DNA of 64,000 nt, taken from positions 1,026,406 through 1,090,405 of the forward strand of contig NZ_CP151800.1 in assembly GCF_038449125.1 (NCBI RefSeq). Direction: 5' to 3'. Shown in pieces: positions 9,911-48,109 of the stretch. Source of the DNA: Kosakonia sp. BYX6. GTDB taxonomy: Bacteria > Pseudomonadota > Gammaproteobacteria > Enterobacterales > Enterobacteriaceae. How positions within the stretch are numbered: position 1 is the first letter of the stretch; each line of letters opens with the position of its first letter. Below the pieces are notes generated by a model. The model was not told where the DNA came from and made no database searches. It was given only the letters and a program-made list of their open reading frames with translations. Made by a program: the position numbers and the translations under genes.

Positions 9911-11839
<1,929 letters not shown>

Positions 11840-11881: not shown

Positions 11882-12637
11882 CTAAATATCAAGAAAACTG
11901 CCCAGCCGATAACCTCGGTCGGCAATCGCATATTTCAGTGATGGCGACGTCAGCACATCCAGTTCAGTTAAGCGGGGGTAACAATAACTACTCAGGCGAA
12001 TCGGGTTGTCGATAAAAGCCGGGTGGCACATCACTTCCAGCGATGTTTCACCCCGTGCGGCAGAGGCATCCAGCGTGCGCAAAAAGAGCGCTTCTGAAAC
12101 CTCGTCTCCGTAAAATTCACTGCTAAAACCCTGCGTACTGCGAAGCGTTGTGGGCAAATCTGCATCAATCCGTTGGTTGCGATCGATACGCAACGGCAAC
12201 CCGCGTCGGGCGGCGAATTGCGCCATCAGCGGCAAAACCTGCGGGAGCATATGCACATGGTGATGGCTGTCGAGATGCGTCGGTTCGCGACCAAACAGGG
12301 TGGTAAAACGCTGATACTGGCTCTCCAGTTCCTGGGCTATCTCTTCCAGCGGTAGCGTTCCTTGCTCGGCCATTTGCCAAATCCATTTCCCCAGCTTGCC
12401 GTCTCGCGCAAGTCCTGGCATCGGCGTTAACGGTCTACCCAACGTCAGCGCAAAGTGCATGCCGACGGCCAGCCAGGGCGCATCTTGCGAAAGCGCAGCG
12501 GCATGTTCCACCGCGTCACCATTCACCAGCGCGGTGGTGGAGGTCACCACGCCGTGGCGAAAACTCTCGATAATGCCGTAGTTTTGCCCTTTACTGAGGC
12601 CAAAATCATCCGCGTTGACAATCAATAAGCGTTCCAT
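11882..12637 (-). CDS. chbG: Chitooligosaccharide deacetylase ChbG (YdjC family)
   Basis: 251-residue metal-dependent deacetylase that removes one N-acetyl group from imported chitobiose-6-phosphate; in E. coli this is needed before ChbR can induce and ChbF can hydrolyse. YdjC-fold ligands are visible: Asp10/Asp11 in [10 protein letters not shown], the histidine in [12 protein letters not shown] near residue 60, and the [10 protein letters not shown] cluster near residue 120. It is the last gene of the chb operon, 12 bp after chbF. Length agrees with E. coli ChbG. Confidence 0.95.
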
Positions 12638-12649
12638 AGCTCACCTCGA

Positions 12650-14005
12650 TTACTGTTGCCTGGCTTTCAGGCGCGCGGCAGTCTGCGCAAAGTTCGGCAG
12701 CCACTTTTCATGGGCCAGAATCATTTCGCGCGCCAGCATTTCGGCGTCGCTGTCCGAATGAATAAGTGGGCTAAGGTTGAGCGCCAGCAGCACATCGTTG
12801 AACTCGCCGCTGAGTGCCGCCTGGCTCGCCGCCACTTCAAACCCTTTGATGGTGTGAATCAGCCCCAGCACTTTCTCGTCGAAATGGGTAACACGCGGGT
12901 GCGGCGTCGCGCCATTGCGGCCCAATATGCAGGTCATCTCGACTGCCCAGTCCGGCGGAATATTGTCGATATGCCCGTGATGGGGAATATTGACGTAATG
13001 CTCCGTTTGCTTGTCGTTATAGATAGCGTTAATCACTTCGCACGCCGCATCGGAGTAGTACGCGCCGCCGCGCTGTTCCAGCTCTTTGGGTTTGACCTTT
13101 AACTCAGGATCTTTGTAGAGTTCAAACAGTTGCTTCTCAACCTGCTGCACGACTTGCGCCCGCGCGCCGCCTTTGTAGTACTCGCCCATTTCAATCGCCA
13201 GCATCTCTTTTTGCTTGAAGTAATAGAGCAGATAAGAGCAGGGCAACAGATTCAGTGAACGAATCAATCCTTCACTGAACGGCAGATCAAAAATGTTTTT
13301 TACCGTCGAGGTTTTTAACTTTCCACTCGCCACGCCGTCGAGCAGTTCCGCAAAGCGCGAGGTGCCATTCACTAATACGTCTTTGATAAACACCATGTGA
13401 TTCAGGCCAAACAGATCCATGGCGATATCATCGTTGTCGCTTAGCGCCAGCACATCGCGGATAAACATTTTCATGCCAACCGGGATATTGCAGACGCCTA
13501 TAAACTTTTTGAAGTTTGTATGGCGATAGACCGCCTCCGTCACCATGCCTGCCGGATTGGTAAAGTTAATCACCCAGGCGTTCGGGCAAATCGCTTCCAC
13601 GTCTTTAATGATGTCGAAAATAACCGGGATGGTGCGCAGCCCTTTGAACAGGCCGCCTGCGCCATTGGTTTCCTGGCCTAAATAGCCGTGGCTCAGCGGA
13701 ATGCGTTCGTCCAGTTCGCGCGCTTTCAACTGACCGACGCGCAGTTGGGTAGTGACAAAATCCGCGCCCTGCAATGCTTCGCGGCGATCCAGCGTTTTAT
13801 AGAGTTTCAGCGGCACGCCTGCGTTGTCGATCATGCGCTGGCAGAGATCAAAAATGATCGCCAGCTTCTCTTTGCCCTCGTCGACATCAACCAGCCACAA
13901 CTCCGTGACCGGCAGCTCGTGGTAGCGCTTAATAAACCCTTCCAGTAATTCCGGGGTGTAACTGCTGCCCCCGCCAATCGTGACGACTTTCAATTTCTGG
14001 TTCAT
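12650..14005 (-). CDS. chbF: 6-phospho-beta-glucosidase/diacetylchitobiose-6-P hydrolase ChbF (GH4)
   Basis: 451-residue glycoside hydrolase family 4 enzyme that splits phosphorylated chitobiose or cellobiose using NAD+ and a divalent metal. The N terminus is a Rossmann fold (VVTIGGGSSYTPELLEG); the metal site includes the Cys in GVCNIPVGM and the His in LFGLNHMVF. I place the start at MNQKLKV because a good GGGAGAAACC site precedes it; an in-frame ATG 17 codons upstream would read into the chbR end region. The gene follows chbR by 34 bp in the operon. Confidence 0.95.
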   Translation of the reverse strand: MNQKLKVVTIGGGSSYTPELLEGFIKRYHELPVTELWLVDVDEGKEKLAIIFDLCQRMIDNAGVPLKLYKTLDRREALQGADFVTTQLRVGQLKARELDERIPLSHGYLGQETNGAGGLFKGLRTIPVIFDIIKDVEAICPNAWVINFTNPAGMVTEAVYRHTNFKKFIGVCNIPVGMKMFIRDVLALSDNDDIAMDLFGLNHMVFIKDVLVNGTSRFAELLDGVASGKLKTSTVKNIFDLPFSEGLIRSLNLLPCSYLLYYFKQKEMLAIEMGEYYKGGARAQVVQQVEKQLFELYKDPELKVKPKELEQRGGAYYSDAACEVINAIYNDKQTEHYVNIPHHGHIDNIPPDWAVEMTCILGRNGATPHPRVTHFDEKVLGLIHTIKGFEVAASQAALSGEFNDVLLALNLSPLIHSDSDAEMLAREMILAHEKWLPNFAQTAARLKARQQ

Positions 14006-14039: not shown

Positions 14040-14897
14040 TTACGCAGGCTCGCCATCGTTGCTGGTGATTTCAGTTAACCGTTTTCGGTAACTGTTTGGC
14101 GTGAATGACGTCATTTTCTTGAACGTCTTAATAAACAAGCTTGGGCTGCTGTAACCCGATTCCCAGGCGATATCGGTCACCGAATAATTGGTCATTTCGA
14201 GCTGTTTTTTCGCGAAATCAATGCGGATCTCATTGATGATCTGCATTGGCGTTTTGCCGTAAAAACGCCGGGTGGCACGCGTCAGATACTCCTGCGATTT
14301 CGCAGAAAGCCGCACCATATTTTCCATCGCATGTTCACCAAATTGTGTTTTATCGTGCATTGCCTCAACGGTGGTTTTCAGCCACTGCGGCGTATCATCC
14401 AGCACCTGCTCTTCACGGTAGTGGCGCAGGCGGTTGAGCACATAAAAGGTGACGGTTTCGATAAATTCGTCCAGCCCGTTTTCGCGAAAGTTCAGGGAAG
14501 CAATCACCGTTTCGACATAGGTCATAAACGCGCTTTGCGTCCGGTACGCCTGGGAAGCGACAAAACAAAATGGCAGTAAAGCGAGGTAGTGCTGCTCGAA
14601 AAACTGCCGGCTAATACCGACATTGAGGATGCGCGTGGCACCGAATTCATAAAAACTCTGGTGGTGCGATCCCAACGGGATAAACACGAAATCGCCGCGC
14701 TCCAGCAACACCCGTTTGCCATTGATCACCTGGTAGTAACGACCGGTTAAGACCAGCGTAAATTCATAGTAATCATGCTGATGCAGCCCGCTGGCGCTCT
14801 CGGTTTTGTTATAGATAAACACATGGAAATTGTTACCGTTGAACAACTGCTGTTCCTGCGCGGTCGCGATTCCTTGTGTGTTGAGCGTCGGCTGCAT
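14040..14897 (-). CDS. chbR: AraC-family dual regulator ChbR
   Basis: 285-residue regulator of the chitobiose operon. The N-terminal cupin effector domain contains [20 protein letters not shown] and a [15 protein letters not shown] segment; the C-terminal domain has two AraC helix-turn-helices, the first around [20 protein letters not shown] and the second around [20 protein letters not shown]. In E. coli it represses chb without substrate and activates together with CRP when deacetylated chitobiose-6-P is present. It follows chbC after 29 bp; the chbA gene normally between them is missing. Confidence 0.94.
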
Positions 14898-14926
14898 CGT
14901 TCACTCCTGCTGGCTGCGAATGGCGG

Positions 14927-16285
14927 TCAAAATTTTAGCGCGTTGGCGATATCTTCTTCGCTCTCTTCCTGCTCAATGGCATTCTGGGCTTTATTGGCAA
15001 CCACCACAAAGGGCAGGTAAACCAGTGTAGCGATGGCGAGGTTAAACAGCGCCAGCAACAGGGCGAGAATGCTGCCATTGGTGTTGAAGAATGCGCCCAA
15101 CCCGGTTGGCATTGTCCACGGCGCGATATTGGTAATCGGCGGAATCAGGCCCGAGTAATACGCCAACAGCGTGATGGCGGCGAGAATCGGCTGAACCAGA
15201 ATGAACGGGATAAACATCACCGGGTTCATGATGATCGGCAGCCCGAACAGAATCGGTTCGTTAATTTGAAAGAGGCCGGAAGGCAGCGCCAGCTTGGCCA
15301 CCTGGCGGTAATCCGCCCGGCGTGAGGCCAGGAAAATCGCGATGATAAGCCCCAGTGTTGCGCCGCTGCCGCCGAGGAAAATATAGGAGTCGAGCATCGG
15401 TTTTGCCCAGACATGGAAGGTTTTACCGGCTTCCAGCGCCGCGTCTACCGAACCGTATTGCTGGTAGACAGCGATATTTTCCAGCGCCCACGGCGTCATA
15501 ATGCCGCTATCCAACGCGGTCAGCGCCAGCGACCCGTGAATGCCAAAGAACCACAGCAGCGGGACAAAAATCACATACGCCCAGCCGACAACGCTGCCCA
15601 GTGAAGCCAGCGGCGTAGAGATAGTGTCCATAATAATCTGGTGGAAGTTGGTGCCGTGGCTGGCCAGCGCCCAACTGATGATCCCCATAATCGAGAGGAT
15701 AATAAAACCCGGAATCAGGGCGGAGAAGGAGCGGGCAACCGAGCTGGGCACGCTTTCGGGTAAGGTGATCACCCAGTTGCGGCGCACAATAAAGGCGAAC
15801 AACTCGGCGACCACCAGGCCAATAATAATGCCGGAAATTATGTTCGCGCCGCCTAACCAGTTCGCGCCGACGGCGTAGGATTCACCGACGCTGTACGGCG
15901 TGACGGTCATAAAGGCGGCAATCGACAGCAGGCCGGCGGCCAGCGAATCCACTTTACGTTCTTCCGCCAGCGCCATGCCGATAAAAAAGGGCGCCATCAA
16001 CGACATAATGCCCAGCGTGCCGTTATATACATTCGCGCCAATGCCTTTTAACCCGTCGAGGGTTGCAATCGTCGACGCATCCAGCCGAATACCCAGCGAG
16101 TAGAAAAACGAACCTTCGCCAAAGCTCAGGAACACGTTATTGATTAGCACAAACATCGCCCCGGCGAGGGTTAACGGCATTAAGCGGATAAACCCATTTT
16201 TAATGGCGTTGACGTGCGGCTGTTGACCAATTTTTATCGCAAAAGGCAGAAGTATCTTTTCAAGTGAAGCAATGGCATTACTCAT
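14927..16285 (-). CDS. chbC: PTS N,N'-diacetylchitobiose transporter subunit IIC
   Basis: 452-residue inner-membrane IIC of the lactose/cellobiose PTS family, the same length as E. coli ChbC. It carries chitobiose or cellobiose across the membrane while ChbB phosphorylates it. About ten hydrophobic segments and the family stretch [20 protein letters not shown] near residue 340, which forms the substrate site, are visible. The C terminus ([14 protein letters not shown]) is only a short tail, so IIA is not fused to it. It lies 64 bp after chbB. Confidence 0.95.
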
Positions 16286-16349: not shown

Positions 16350-16670
16350 TTATTTTGCAGCGGCTTGTTTGATGGCGGCGACGGCCGCTTTCAGTACGCC
16401 TAAGCCATCGACTTTGCCATACAGCATTGAATCAATGACTTCGACGGGTTTATTGGGGAGTAAACGTTGGATTTCGGACAGCTTCCACGCGATTTGTGGG
16501 CCAAGCAATACGACATCGGCTTGCGGGCCTTTTTCTGCGGCGAGCGTCTCAGAAAATGCTTCAATAATGACCGGCACTTCATATTTTTCCGCCTGTGCTC
16601 GCATTTTTGACACCAACAAAGACGTGGACATGCCCGCAGAACAAAACAGATAGATATGCTTCTTTTCCAT
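16350..16670 (-). CDS. chbB: PTS N,N'-diacetylchitobiose transporter subunit IIB
   Basis: 106-residue IIB of the lactose/cellobiose PTS family, the phosphoryl donor to the sugar. Cys10 in [18 protein letters not shown] is the phosphorylated residue, and the P-loop-like segment after it is intact. The start MEKKHIYLF matches E. coli ChbB; an upstream in-frame start five codons earlier is not favoured. It is the first gene of the chb operon. It would normally receive phosphate from ChbA (IIA), for which no gene exists here. Confidence 0.95.
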
Positions 16671-46157: not shown

Positions 46158-48014
46158 TCAGGCCAGCGACATCAGCGGCACCCCCACGGTAACCGCGCCC
46201 TGCGATTGATGGCGGGTGAGCGTGAATTCATCGCTATTGACCACCAGCACCGGCGTGGTCAGATCGTAACCGGCCTGCTCAATTTGCGCTTTATCGAAGG
46301 CCAACAGCGGTGTCCCTGCGGCCACTCTGTCGCCCTCTTTTACCAGCGGCGTAAAATATTGCCCCTGTAAATTAACGGTATTCAGGCCGACATGGATCAA
46401 TAATTCTGCACCATTATCACATATCAGGCCGATAGCGTGATGAGAGTCAATCAATGTTGCGACCTGCGCATCACATGGAGCCACAACTTTACCTTCGTGG
46501 GGAATGATCGCGATGCCATCGCCCAGCACTTTTCCGGCAAAGGCTTCATCTTTCACGCTCTCCAGCGCAATCACTTCGCCTTTAATCGGGCTTAGCATTT
46601 GCAGGGGACCGACGGTCAGCGGCGCACTTTGCTCGATGTTTTGCGTTTCTTCAACGGGATCCTCAAAACCGACAAACTGCACCATGATGATGGTCAGCAC
46701 AATTGCCGTCCCGGCACCAACCAGTTCGCCAATAAAGGACATCGGCGCGTCGGGGCTGATGGCGTTCACCAGCGTGAATAAACCTGGCAGCGCGGCATAG
46801 GCGTAATAGAGGCTACCAAACAAGCTGGCGACCACGGCACCAATCGCGCCACCGATACAACCACAGATAAACGGCTTTTTAAAGCGCAGCGTCACGCCGT
46901 AAATCGCCGGTTCGGTAATACCAAAAATGGCCGTCACGCCCGCCGACAGCGACGTCGCTTTTAGTTGCTTGTTGCGGCTTTTGATAAACACGCCGAACAC
47001 CGCTGCCATCTGGCCGATCACCGCAATGGTCTGGTAAGCCTGGAAAGAGTCATAACCTTGCGTGTCGAAGTTGGCCATGATCACCGGCGTAATGCCCCAA
47101 TGCACGCCAAAAATAACGATAACCTGCCAGACTCCACCGATAATGGCCGCCGCTAAAGCCGGCGCAGCATGGAACAGCGCGTTATAACCGTTCGCCACGC
47201 CGAGCGCCGCCCAACTGGTAATCGGCCCGATAACAATCAGCGTCAGCGGCACAATCACCACAAAGCAAATCAGCGGCGTAAACAGCGGGCTTATCACTTC
47301 CGGCAGCCATTTTTCCACGCGGCGCTCGAACCAGGAGAGCGCCCAAACAAGGAACAGCGGCGGCAGCACCGACGAGGTATACACCGTTTCCGCCAGTGGG
47401 AAGAAGAAGAATTTCACTTCGCTACCGGTAGCGATTTTCCCGGCTAAGGCTGTCCATTCCGGGTTGATCAGCGCGCAGCAGCAGAGCACGGCGATAAAAG
47501 GGTTACATTTGAAGTGGCGCGCGGCGGTAATCGCGATAAACACCGGCAGGAAGGCAAACGGCGTCCACGACATAAAGTTGAGCACCGCAAAGGTGCCGGT
47601 GGATTTGATATCGGCATCCGCCAGACCCAACAGGATCAACAGCCCCTGCAAAATCCCGGCGGCGGCAAGGATATAAACGATAGGCGCAAAAACCGCCGAC
47701 ATGGTGGCGATCACCGCATCCAGCCAGCGCGTTTTCTGCGCCGCGCCATTTTCATTCATTTTCACCATGCCGCTGAACGCGTTGAACACATCCGCGACGT
47801 GTGTGCCGATCACCACCTGGAACTGGCCGGCGCTTTCCACCACCGCGATCACGCCGGGCATGCTCTGGACATTGGCTTTCGCTGTAGCGGGCGTTTCGTT
47901 TAAGACCAGGCGCAGACGTGTGGCGCAGCGCGAGAAGTTGCTGATGTTTTCCTCACCGCCAACTTCCTGAAGGATATCACTCGCTAACTTGTTGTAATCC
48001 CTGATAACGGCCAT
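46158..48014 (-). CDS. PTS beta-glucoside transporter subunit IIBCA (BglF type)
   Basis: 618-residue inner-membrane enzyme II that imports and phosphorylates a beta-glucoside. Order IIB-IIC-IIA: the phosphorylated Cys30 is in NFSRCATRLRLVL, IIC covers about residues 105-460 with FGITEPAIYGVTLRFKKPFI, and IIA has the active His541 in ELLIHVGLNTVNL. The gene has a LacI-type regulator downstream rather than a BglG antiterminator, and no phospho-beta-glucosidase in its own unit; AscB, 3 kb away, could serve. Confidence 0.93.
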   Translation of the reverse strand: MAVIRDYNKLASDILQEVGGEENISNFSRCATRLRLVLNETPATAKANVQSMPGVIAVVESAGQFQVVIGTHVADVFNAFSGMVKMNENGAAQKTRWLDAVIATMSAVFAPIVYILAAAGILQGLLILLGLADADIKSTGTFAVLNFMSWTPFAFLPVFIAITAARHFKCNPFIAVLCCCALINPEWTALAGKIATGSEVKFFFFPLAETVYTSSVLPPLFLVWALSWFERRVEKWLPEVISPLFTPLICFVVIVPLTLIVIGPITSWAALGVANGYNALFHAAPALAAAIIGGVWQVIVIFGVHWGITPVIMANFDTQGYDSFQAYQTIAVIGQMAAVFGVFIKSRNKQLKATSLSAGVTAIFGITEPAIYGVTLRFKKPFICGCIGGAIGAVVASLFGSLYYAYAALPGLFTLVNAISPDAPMSFIGELVGAGTAIVLTIIMVQFVGFEDPVEETQNIEQSAPLTVGPLQMLSPIKGEVIALESVKDEAFAGKVLGDGIAIIPHEGKVVAPCDAQVATLIDSHHAIGLICDNGAELLIHVGLNTVNLQGQYFTPLVKEGDRVAAGTPLLAFDKAQIEQAGYDLTTPVLVVNSDEFTLTRHQSQGAVTVGVPLMSLA

Positions 48015-48059: not shown

Positions 48060-48109
48060 TGAAACCGGTTTCATGCTAGCCTGGTGAAACGCAGCCGCAA
48101 CCGGTTTCA
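48060..48109. promoter_or_regulatory. Two AscG-type operators upstream of the beta-glucoside PTS gene
   Basis: TGAAACCGGTTTCA (48060-48073) is a perfect palindrome and, as I recall, the AscG consensus; GCAACCGGTTTCA (48097-48109) is a second, with a further GGTGAAACG half between. They lie 45-95 bases before the gene start. Confidence 0.85.

Follow-up and report, generated by a model that had tools for sequence, protein, structure and literature searches.

The stretch of DNA analyzed here (the window) comprises 64,000 nt of a Kosakonia genome, G000, at C1:1026406-1090405, and carries a chitobiose operon on its minus strand. The operon begins with an intact chbB encoding a PTS IIB of 106 aa (16350..16670), followed by an intact chbC encoding a PTS IIC of 452 aa (14927..16285), an intact chbR encoding an AraC-type regulator (14040..14897), a gene for a GH4-type glycosidase in the ChbF position (12650..14005) and chbG, encoding a chitin disaccharide deacetylase (11882..12637). 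ChbB, ChbR and ChbG each scored above their own NCBIfam equivalog cut-offs and ChbC exceeded the cut-off of its equivalog over positions 1-452 of 452, with the ChbB-ChbC-ChbR-ChbG orthologs lying in order. No NCBIfam model scored above its cut-off for the GH4-type protein, which we take to be ChbF-like from its position and its resemblance to that enzyme. A gene on the plus strand (10289-11839), presumably porin-like by resemblance, adjoins chbG.

At the expected site of chbA, the chbC-chbR junction is only 29 bp long (14898..14926, minus strand) and retains a ribosome-binding-site-like AGGAGTGA ahead of chbR. A sequence-only reading of this DNA had proposed that just 29 bp separate the two genes, that ChbC ends normally without a fused IIA and that ChbB has no IIA in its operon. 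All three points were borne out: on the minus strand the last base of chbC is 14927 and the first of chbR is 14897, ChbC is a full-length equivalog of 452 aa with a normal C-terminus and no IIA extension, which rules out a IIA fused to ChbC, and no PF02255 (PTS_IIA) match occurs in the 64,000-nt window and thus none between chbC and chbR. A comparison of this junction in sister strains, which the same reading had called for, gave 29 bp in G014 and 30 bp in G013, both of which lack chbA. Since the same or nearly the same spacing is found in independent genomes, an assembly artefact is ruled out as the source of the junction.

In E. coli, chbA is counted among the chb genes (PMC4488073), and the chb genes of L. 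paracasei are likewise described as carrying their own chbA (PMC12791066). The Kosakonia operon resembles the Escherichia coli-type chbBCARFG operon in its order chbB-chbC-chbR-chbF-chbG and in its ChbB, ChbC, ChbR and ChbG equivalogs, and differs from it in lacking chbA. Among the best 80 of 169 relatives with named ChbR loci, Escherichia included, a PTS_IIA match lies between chbC and chbR in 77. The three without it are all Kosakonia records, two with a junction of 68 or 76 bp and the third, K. cowanii (L015), with no chbC match. Across the 15 genomes of the genus (G000 and G001-G014), surveyed by the positions of PF02255, ChbC and ChbR matches, chbA adjoins chbC in six (G004, G006, G007, G009, G011, G012), chbC and chbR occur without chbA but with chbB in seven (G000, G003, G005, G008, G010, G013, G014) and chbC is absent from two (G001, G002). 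Of 149 genomes sampled across the family, ChbC is present in 30 at E <= 1e-140, and coordinates compared by eye revealed a IIA-less chb operon outside Kosakonia only in G039 and in the second chb copy of G059, the latter with no convincing chbB match; in G054 the IIA is present beyond an inserted GH1 gene. The G039 operon reads chbB-chbC-GH1-chbR-chbG. Records L009, L010, L011, L012, L013 and L014 duplicate assemblies already counted among the 15 genus genomes, so the nine chbA-less rows in our alignments represent seven genomes, and some chbA-containing rows are duplicated as well. One of these records, FOAY01000001.1 (L011), is titled K. sacchari SP1; its chb genes group with the chbA-less clade B described below and not with those of K. 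pseudosacchari or K. quasisacchari, and the label may need checking.

On a tree of thiC, thiE, thiH and rpoC, the chbA-less genomes form two clades. Clade A consists of G000, G014 and G013 together with G002 (support 95.3/88, SH-aLRT/bootstrap) and clade B of G003, G005, G008 and G010 together with G001 (100/100). The chbA-containing clade of G006, G007, G009, G011 and G012 is sister to clade A (96.6/87), and G004, which also has chbA, lies outside (81.3/79). A separate chb tree was built without L041, G039 and the second G059 copy. The junctions follow the same division, measuring 29-30 bp in clade A versus 68-76 bp in clade B. The 68-bp spacer of one clade B record (L011, 3933-4000) also contains a strong hairpin (z -6.0), and none occurs in the 29-bp spacer of G000. 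The simplest reading of the tree and the junctions is that chbA was lost probably twice in Kosakonia. We regard a single ancestral loss, followed by regain of chbA in the G006/G007/G009/G011/G012 clade, as unlikely; it concerns history and would be compatible with any mechanism. Such a history would account for the 14 nt CGTAAGGAGTTAAC ahead of chbR, which is identical between G014 and clade B, and the deep splits that speak against it are only moderately supported (95.3/88, 96.6/87 and 81.3/79). However, the two kinds of junction are unlike in sequence as well as in length, and the divergence of chbA from G004 is about that of chbC (dS 0.98 for chbA versus 0.92 for chbC between G006 and G004, and 1.25 versus 0.88 between G012 and G004), which gives no sign of a recent import of chbA.

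The sequence-only reading had left two options for an operon of this kind, either that another lactose/cellobiose-type IIA in the genome serves ChbB or that PTS uptake through the operon is impaired. The second of these, in which the operon is decaying and chbB and chbC have merely not yet been lost, draws on two genomes inside the chbA-less clades: G002 (L109, clade A), in which chbB, chbC and chbG were not found, and G001 (L110, clade B), in which most of the operon is gone and only a chbR remnant was found, while neither chbC nor chbR is missing from any of the six chbA-containing Kosakonia genomes. Against this, chbB, chbC and chbR are all retained in the seven other chbA-less genomes, and no internal stop was found in any chbB or chbC piece read. 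Across 12 informative chbA-less pairs (nine when the duplicate record L011 is left out) chbC has a dN/dS of 0.033-0.070, compared with 0.014-0.051 in nine informative chbA-containing Kosakonia pairs and 0.021-0.068 across 15 pairs from other genera with chbA. For chbB the values are 0-0.083 in six chbA-less pairs versus 0.031-0.121 in nine chbA-containing Kosakonia pairs, with chbB of G008 and G010 omitted from the run and L011 standing for G010. (For K. pneumoniae L041, whose ChbR piece is interrupted by a stop, the dN values of ChbR were excluded.) The chbC constraint of 0.03-0.07 persists even though chbC dS reaches about 1.1 within clade A, and functionless genes would be expected to be less constrained. 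Strong purifying selection on ChbC in the chbA-less lineages therefore indicates that the operon is probably not dead, and we consider simple decay to be improbable.

A whole-genome search for IIA proteins, which had been proposed as a check, turned up two lactose-type IIA genes. PF02255 has exactly two matches in G000 (E <= 0.001), at C1:44667-44945 and C1:4481524-4481802, both outside the window. The first belongs to a cel operon with the order IIB-IIC-GH1-IIA, which is complete in all 15 Kosakonia genomes. The second belongs to an orphan IIB-IIA pair located between thiH and rpoC (C1 about 4481196-4481823; L004 7197-7824), and both genes of this rpoC-linked pair are likewise present in 15 of 15. 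The presence of two IIA genes alongside an intact and constrained chbB and chbC favors the option that another IIA serves ChbB, leaving the impaired operon as the disfavored one, with the caveat that G002 and G001 have lost more. On the terms of the sequence-only reading, a IIA at another locus could render the absence of chbA neutral in function. EIIA-Glc and other IIA families were also considered as donors on the basis of family membership; EIIA-Glc would be an unlikely phosphate donor to a IIB of the lactose family.

The rpoC-linked IIA scores 106.7 bits against PF02255 (cut-off 27), and its motif VHSQDH aligns with VHAQDH of ChbA at His89, which we take to be the active site. Against the ChbA equivalog NF007768 it scores 106.0 bits, under the cut-off of 148, so it is a paralog rather than a chbA that has moved. 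Other genera carry the rpoC-linked IIA and chbA together, and a relocated chbA is ruled out on both counts. This coexistence also indicates that the rpoC-linked IIA permits loss of chbA and does not force it. The rpoC-linked IIA is found at an identity of at least 77% in 29 of the 149 family genomes. We read the 3' flank of rpoC in 67 genomes covering 28 of these 29 (all but G042), and the flank holds the IIA in 26 of the 28; the exceptions are G057, where the IIA is about 7 kb away, and G005, where the contig ends. A IIB lies alongside in 25 of the 26, the remaining genome, G056 (L258), having the IIA without a IIB match. Other genes at the thiH-rpoC spot vary, an example being a diguanylate-cyclase-like gene in G000.

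In the part of G000 that was read around the rpoC-linked pair, no IIC gene lies beside it. Elsewhere the same genome has three IIC genes without an adjacent IIB or IIA, of which L104 and L105 each accompany a GH1 gene and a GntR-type regulator gene (named from sequence) and L106 stands alone. An L106-type IIC at an identity of at least 87%, with a partial match in G042 counted in as well, was found in 28 of the 149 genomes, all of them among the 29 with the rpoC-linked IIA; both identity cut-offs were chosen post hoc at gaps in the match lists (87 to 77% for the IIC, 77 to 70% for the IIA), and looser L106 matches (E <= 1e-130) extend to 54 genomes. Only G056 among the 29 has the IIA without an L106-type IIC, and in this genome the module may be breaking up. 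When the IIA and the L106-type IIC were mapped on an rpoC tree of 67 genomes hand-picked from the 149, an average of 5.6 out of 6 independent pairs were concordant and none were opposed (median p 0.031, range 0.031-0.063); this tree sets the two Kosakonia genomes apart, which makes its finer branching unreliable.

Loci were read for 30 of 34 genomes with an L104-type IIC (all except G128, G125, G042 and G116), for all 12 with an L105-type IIC and, in the case of the L106 type, for the best 30 of its 54 matching genomes. In genomes with the rpoC-linked IIA, no IIA lies within 1.5 kb of the L104-type IIC at any of 15 loci, whereas in genomes without it a IIA is adjacent at 14 of 15 loci (exception G071), a contrast that may rest on few evolutionary events. 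These latter loci (L181-L195), 14 of which have the adjacent IIA, show no IIB match within 1.5 kb. The 12 genomes with an L105-type IIC are 11 of the 29 plus G154, and a IIB is present near the G154 copy. A IIB is retained beside the L106-type IIC at four loci (L221, L222, L227 and L229), which suggests stepwise loss; the adjacent IIB may be the ancestral state.

All 21 sequences aligned upstream of the rpoC-linked pair, 15 from Kosakonia and six from other genomes, contain an exact AACCGGTT. The same sequence occurs within 400 nt upstream of the L106-type IIC at 29 of 30 loci and before the cel operon in all 15 Kosakonia genomes, against a chance expectation of about 0.03 per 400 nt; Fisher values, which take no account of relatedness, carry no weight here. 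Broken down by genome, the L106-type loci that have it are all 27 whose genomes carry the rpoC-linked IIA and two of the three more distant IICs whose genomes lack it (L236, L237). It is absent upstream of all 30 L104-type and all 12 L105-type loci. The rpoC-linked pair also has a CRP-like site with one mismatch near -92; in G002 and G013 an alternative one-mismatch CRP-like place overlaps the operator. Within the window, a gene for a 618-aa PTS protein (46158-48014, minus strand), which we take from its resemblance to be of the bgl/asc type, is preceded by a perfect palindrome, TGAAACCGGTTTCA, at 48060. It shares its core with the sequence found before the rpoC-linked pair, the L106-type IIC and cel, and the AscG operator reads the same as this palindrome. 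The putative AACCGGTT operator common to these three loci may be of the CelR/AscG kind. CelR and AscG are described as regulators of cellobiose genes (PMC4052901), and the likeness to our case lies in LacI-family control of such genes. Taken together, co-occurrence and the shared operator lead us to infer that the rpoC-linked pair serves the orphan IICs, and from sequence comparison it appears to be a shared module for several IIC permeases in the family that lack an IIA (or IIB) partner encoded with them.

Comparison of the chb proteins themselves pointed to one residue. Of 835 aligned columns in ChbB, ChbC and ChbR, a single one has a residue common to all nine chbA-less Kosakonia rows (seven genomes) and absent from the chbA-containing rows, namely Lys at ChbB position 63 (codon AAG at 16482..16484, minus strand, in the window). 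As one of the 83 chbA-containing operons has no ChbB match, 82 rows are available for this position, and they contain Met in 78, Leu in three and Ile in one. The codon is AAG in six of the chbA-less genomes and AAA in G010; the sister chbA-containing clade has ATG in all five genomes, and G004 has CTG. As a control we examined 120 pairs of clades, drawn by hand and with two of the clade groups holding one row each. Ten pairs, the chbA-less pair included, have a column of this kind somewhere in ChbB, ChbC or ChbR, and only the chbA-less pair has one in ChbB. The scan of the 835 columns was performed without G039, K. cowanii L015 and the second G059 copy; the separate chbA-less operon of G039 has Thr at ChbB 63. 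Under a one-loss history, Met63Lys would have arisen once and then reversed. The IIB of the rpoC-linked pair has Lys61 and Glu63, and the cel IIB has Lys61 and Met63. Lys63 in ChbB may be an adjustment to the rpoC-linked IIA. The ChbA-ChbB complex is represented by the solved chains 2wwv and 2wy2, which match both proteins.

We propose that a clean deletion would have removed chbA (probably twice in the genus) while sparing the ribosome-binding site of chbR, and that ChbB and ChbC would still function as a PTS. ChbB would then receive its phosphoryl group in trans from a different IIA of the lactose family, for which the best candidate is the one in the orphan pair between thiH and rpoC. As a whole we hold this reading to be somewhat better than even. 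The maintenance of the operon would most likely be explained by a spare IIA elsewhere in the chromosome that powers ChbB, and we infer on these grounds that ChbB is phosphorylated in strains without chbA. A close rival is the cel IIA, encoded in a complete operon; it would likewise phosphorylate ChbB in trans, and we give it a rather low probability. In its favor, this operon is complete in all 15 Kosakonia genomes, and its IIA is 48% identical to ChbA versus 43% for the rpoC-linked IIA, with an active-site helix (HAQDHLMTS.LAREL) that nearly matches that of ChbA. However, the cel IIA is part of its own sugar operon under the AACCGGTT operator, so its supply may depend on cellobiose, and its own IIB has Met63 as in ChbB of chbA-containing strains, leaving the change to Lys63 unexplained.

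A further point against the cel IIA comes from G039, a genome with a separate chbA-less operon: its single PF02255 match genome-wide belongs to the rpoC-linked type, with an identity of 65-71% that varies with the stretch compared, and is located away from rpoC. The search for IICs in this genome used ChbC and the three orphan IIC queries only, at strict cut-offs. The lone IIA gene of G039 adjoins GH4-like and LacI-like genes. We therefore put the rpoC-linked IIA ahead of the cel IIA as the presumed donor to ChbB, because the pair seems to be needed by the orphan IICs, because the only PF02255 match of G039 is of this type and because its own IIB has charged residues (Lys61, Glu63) near the Lys gained by ChbB; both IIAs may serve.

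The operators bear on when such a donor would be available. No AACCGGTT operator was found upstream of chbB, and since the rpoC-linked pair has a LacI-type operator that chb lacks, the pair may be poorly expressed on chitobiose alone. A more far-reaching version of our proposal, which we advance only tentatively, is that the chitobiose permease has been captured by the thiH-rpoC IIB-IIA hub, with ChbB retuned through Met63Lys in two lineages. Because the hub has a LacI-type operator in common with cel, together with a CRP-like site, loss of chbA would put chitobiose uptake under the cellobiose regulon.

A supply of IIA or IIB in trans is already known. In Lactococcus lactis, PtcA and PtcB are described as working with CelB (PMC4286628), and, as proposed for the pair in Kosakonia, a cellobiose-type IIA and IIB are encoded apart from the IIC that they serve. 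The L. lactis case is a working Gram-positive system, whereas the Kosakonia case is deduced from genomes, with ChbB encoded in its own operon and only the IIA missing. A PTS without a IIA has also been described as cross-activated by EIIA-Glc (PMC3302838); this is similar in that a IIA-less permease uses the IIA of another locus and different in that the IIA belongs to another family than the lactose-type proteins of Kosakonia. Klebsiella KPN00353 was ruled out as a related case, as its authors assign it to the fructose-mannitol IIA family (PMC5770620). Among the matches listed from the open-access literature, a coverage outside which most subscription papers fall, no title or abstract dealt with the present case. 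The shared-module pattern is the more interesting part here.

PTS operons are usually taken as self-contained. In the chbA-less Kosakonia the chb operon has no IIA and is nevertheless under selection, and annotating such operons as broken may be wrong. The pattern across the family points to a distant chromosomal IIB-IIA pair that would serve several permeases. As the gene losses, a putative donor and one candidate acceptor residue have all been named, this case would provide a direct test of partner swapping in PTS phosphotransfer.
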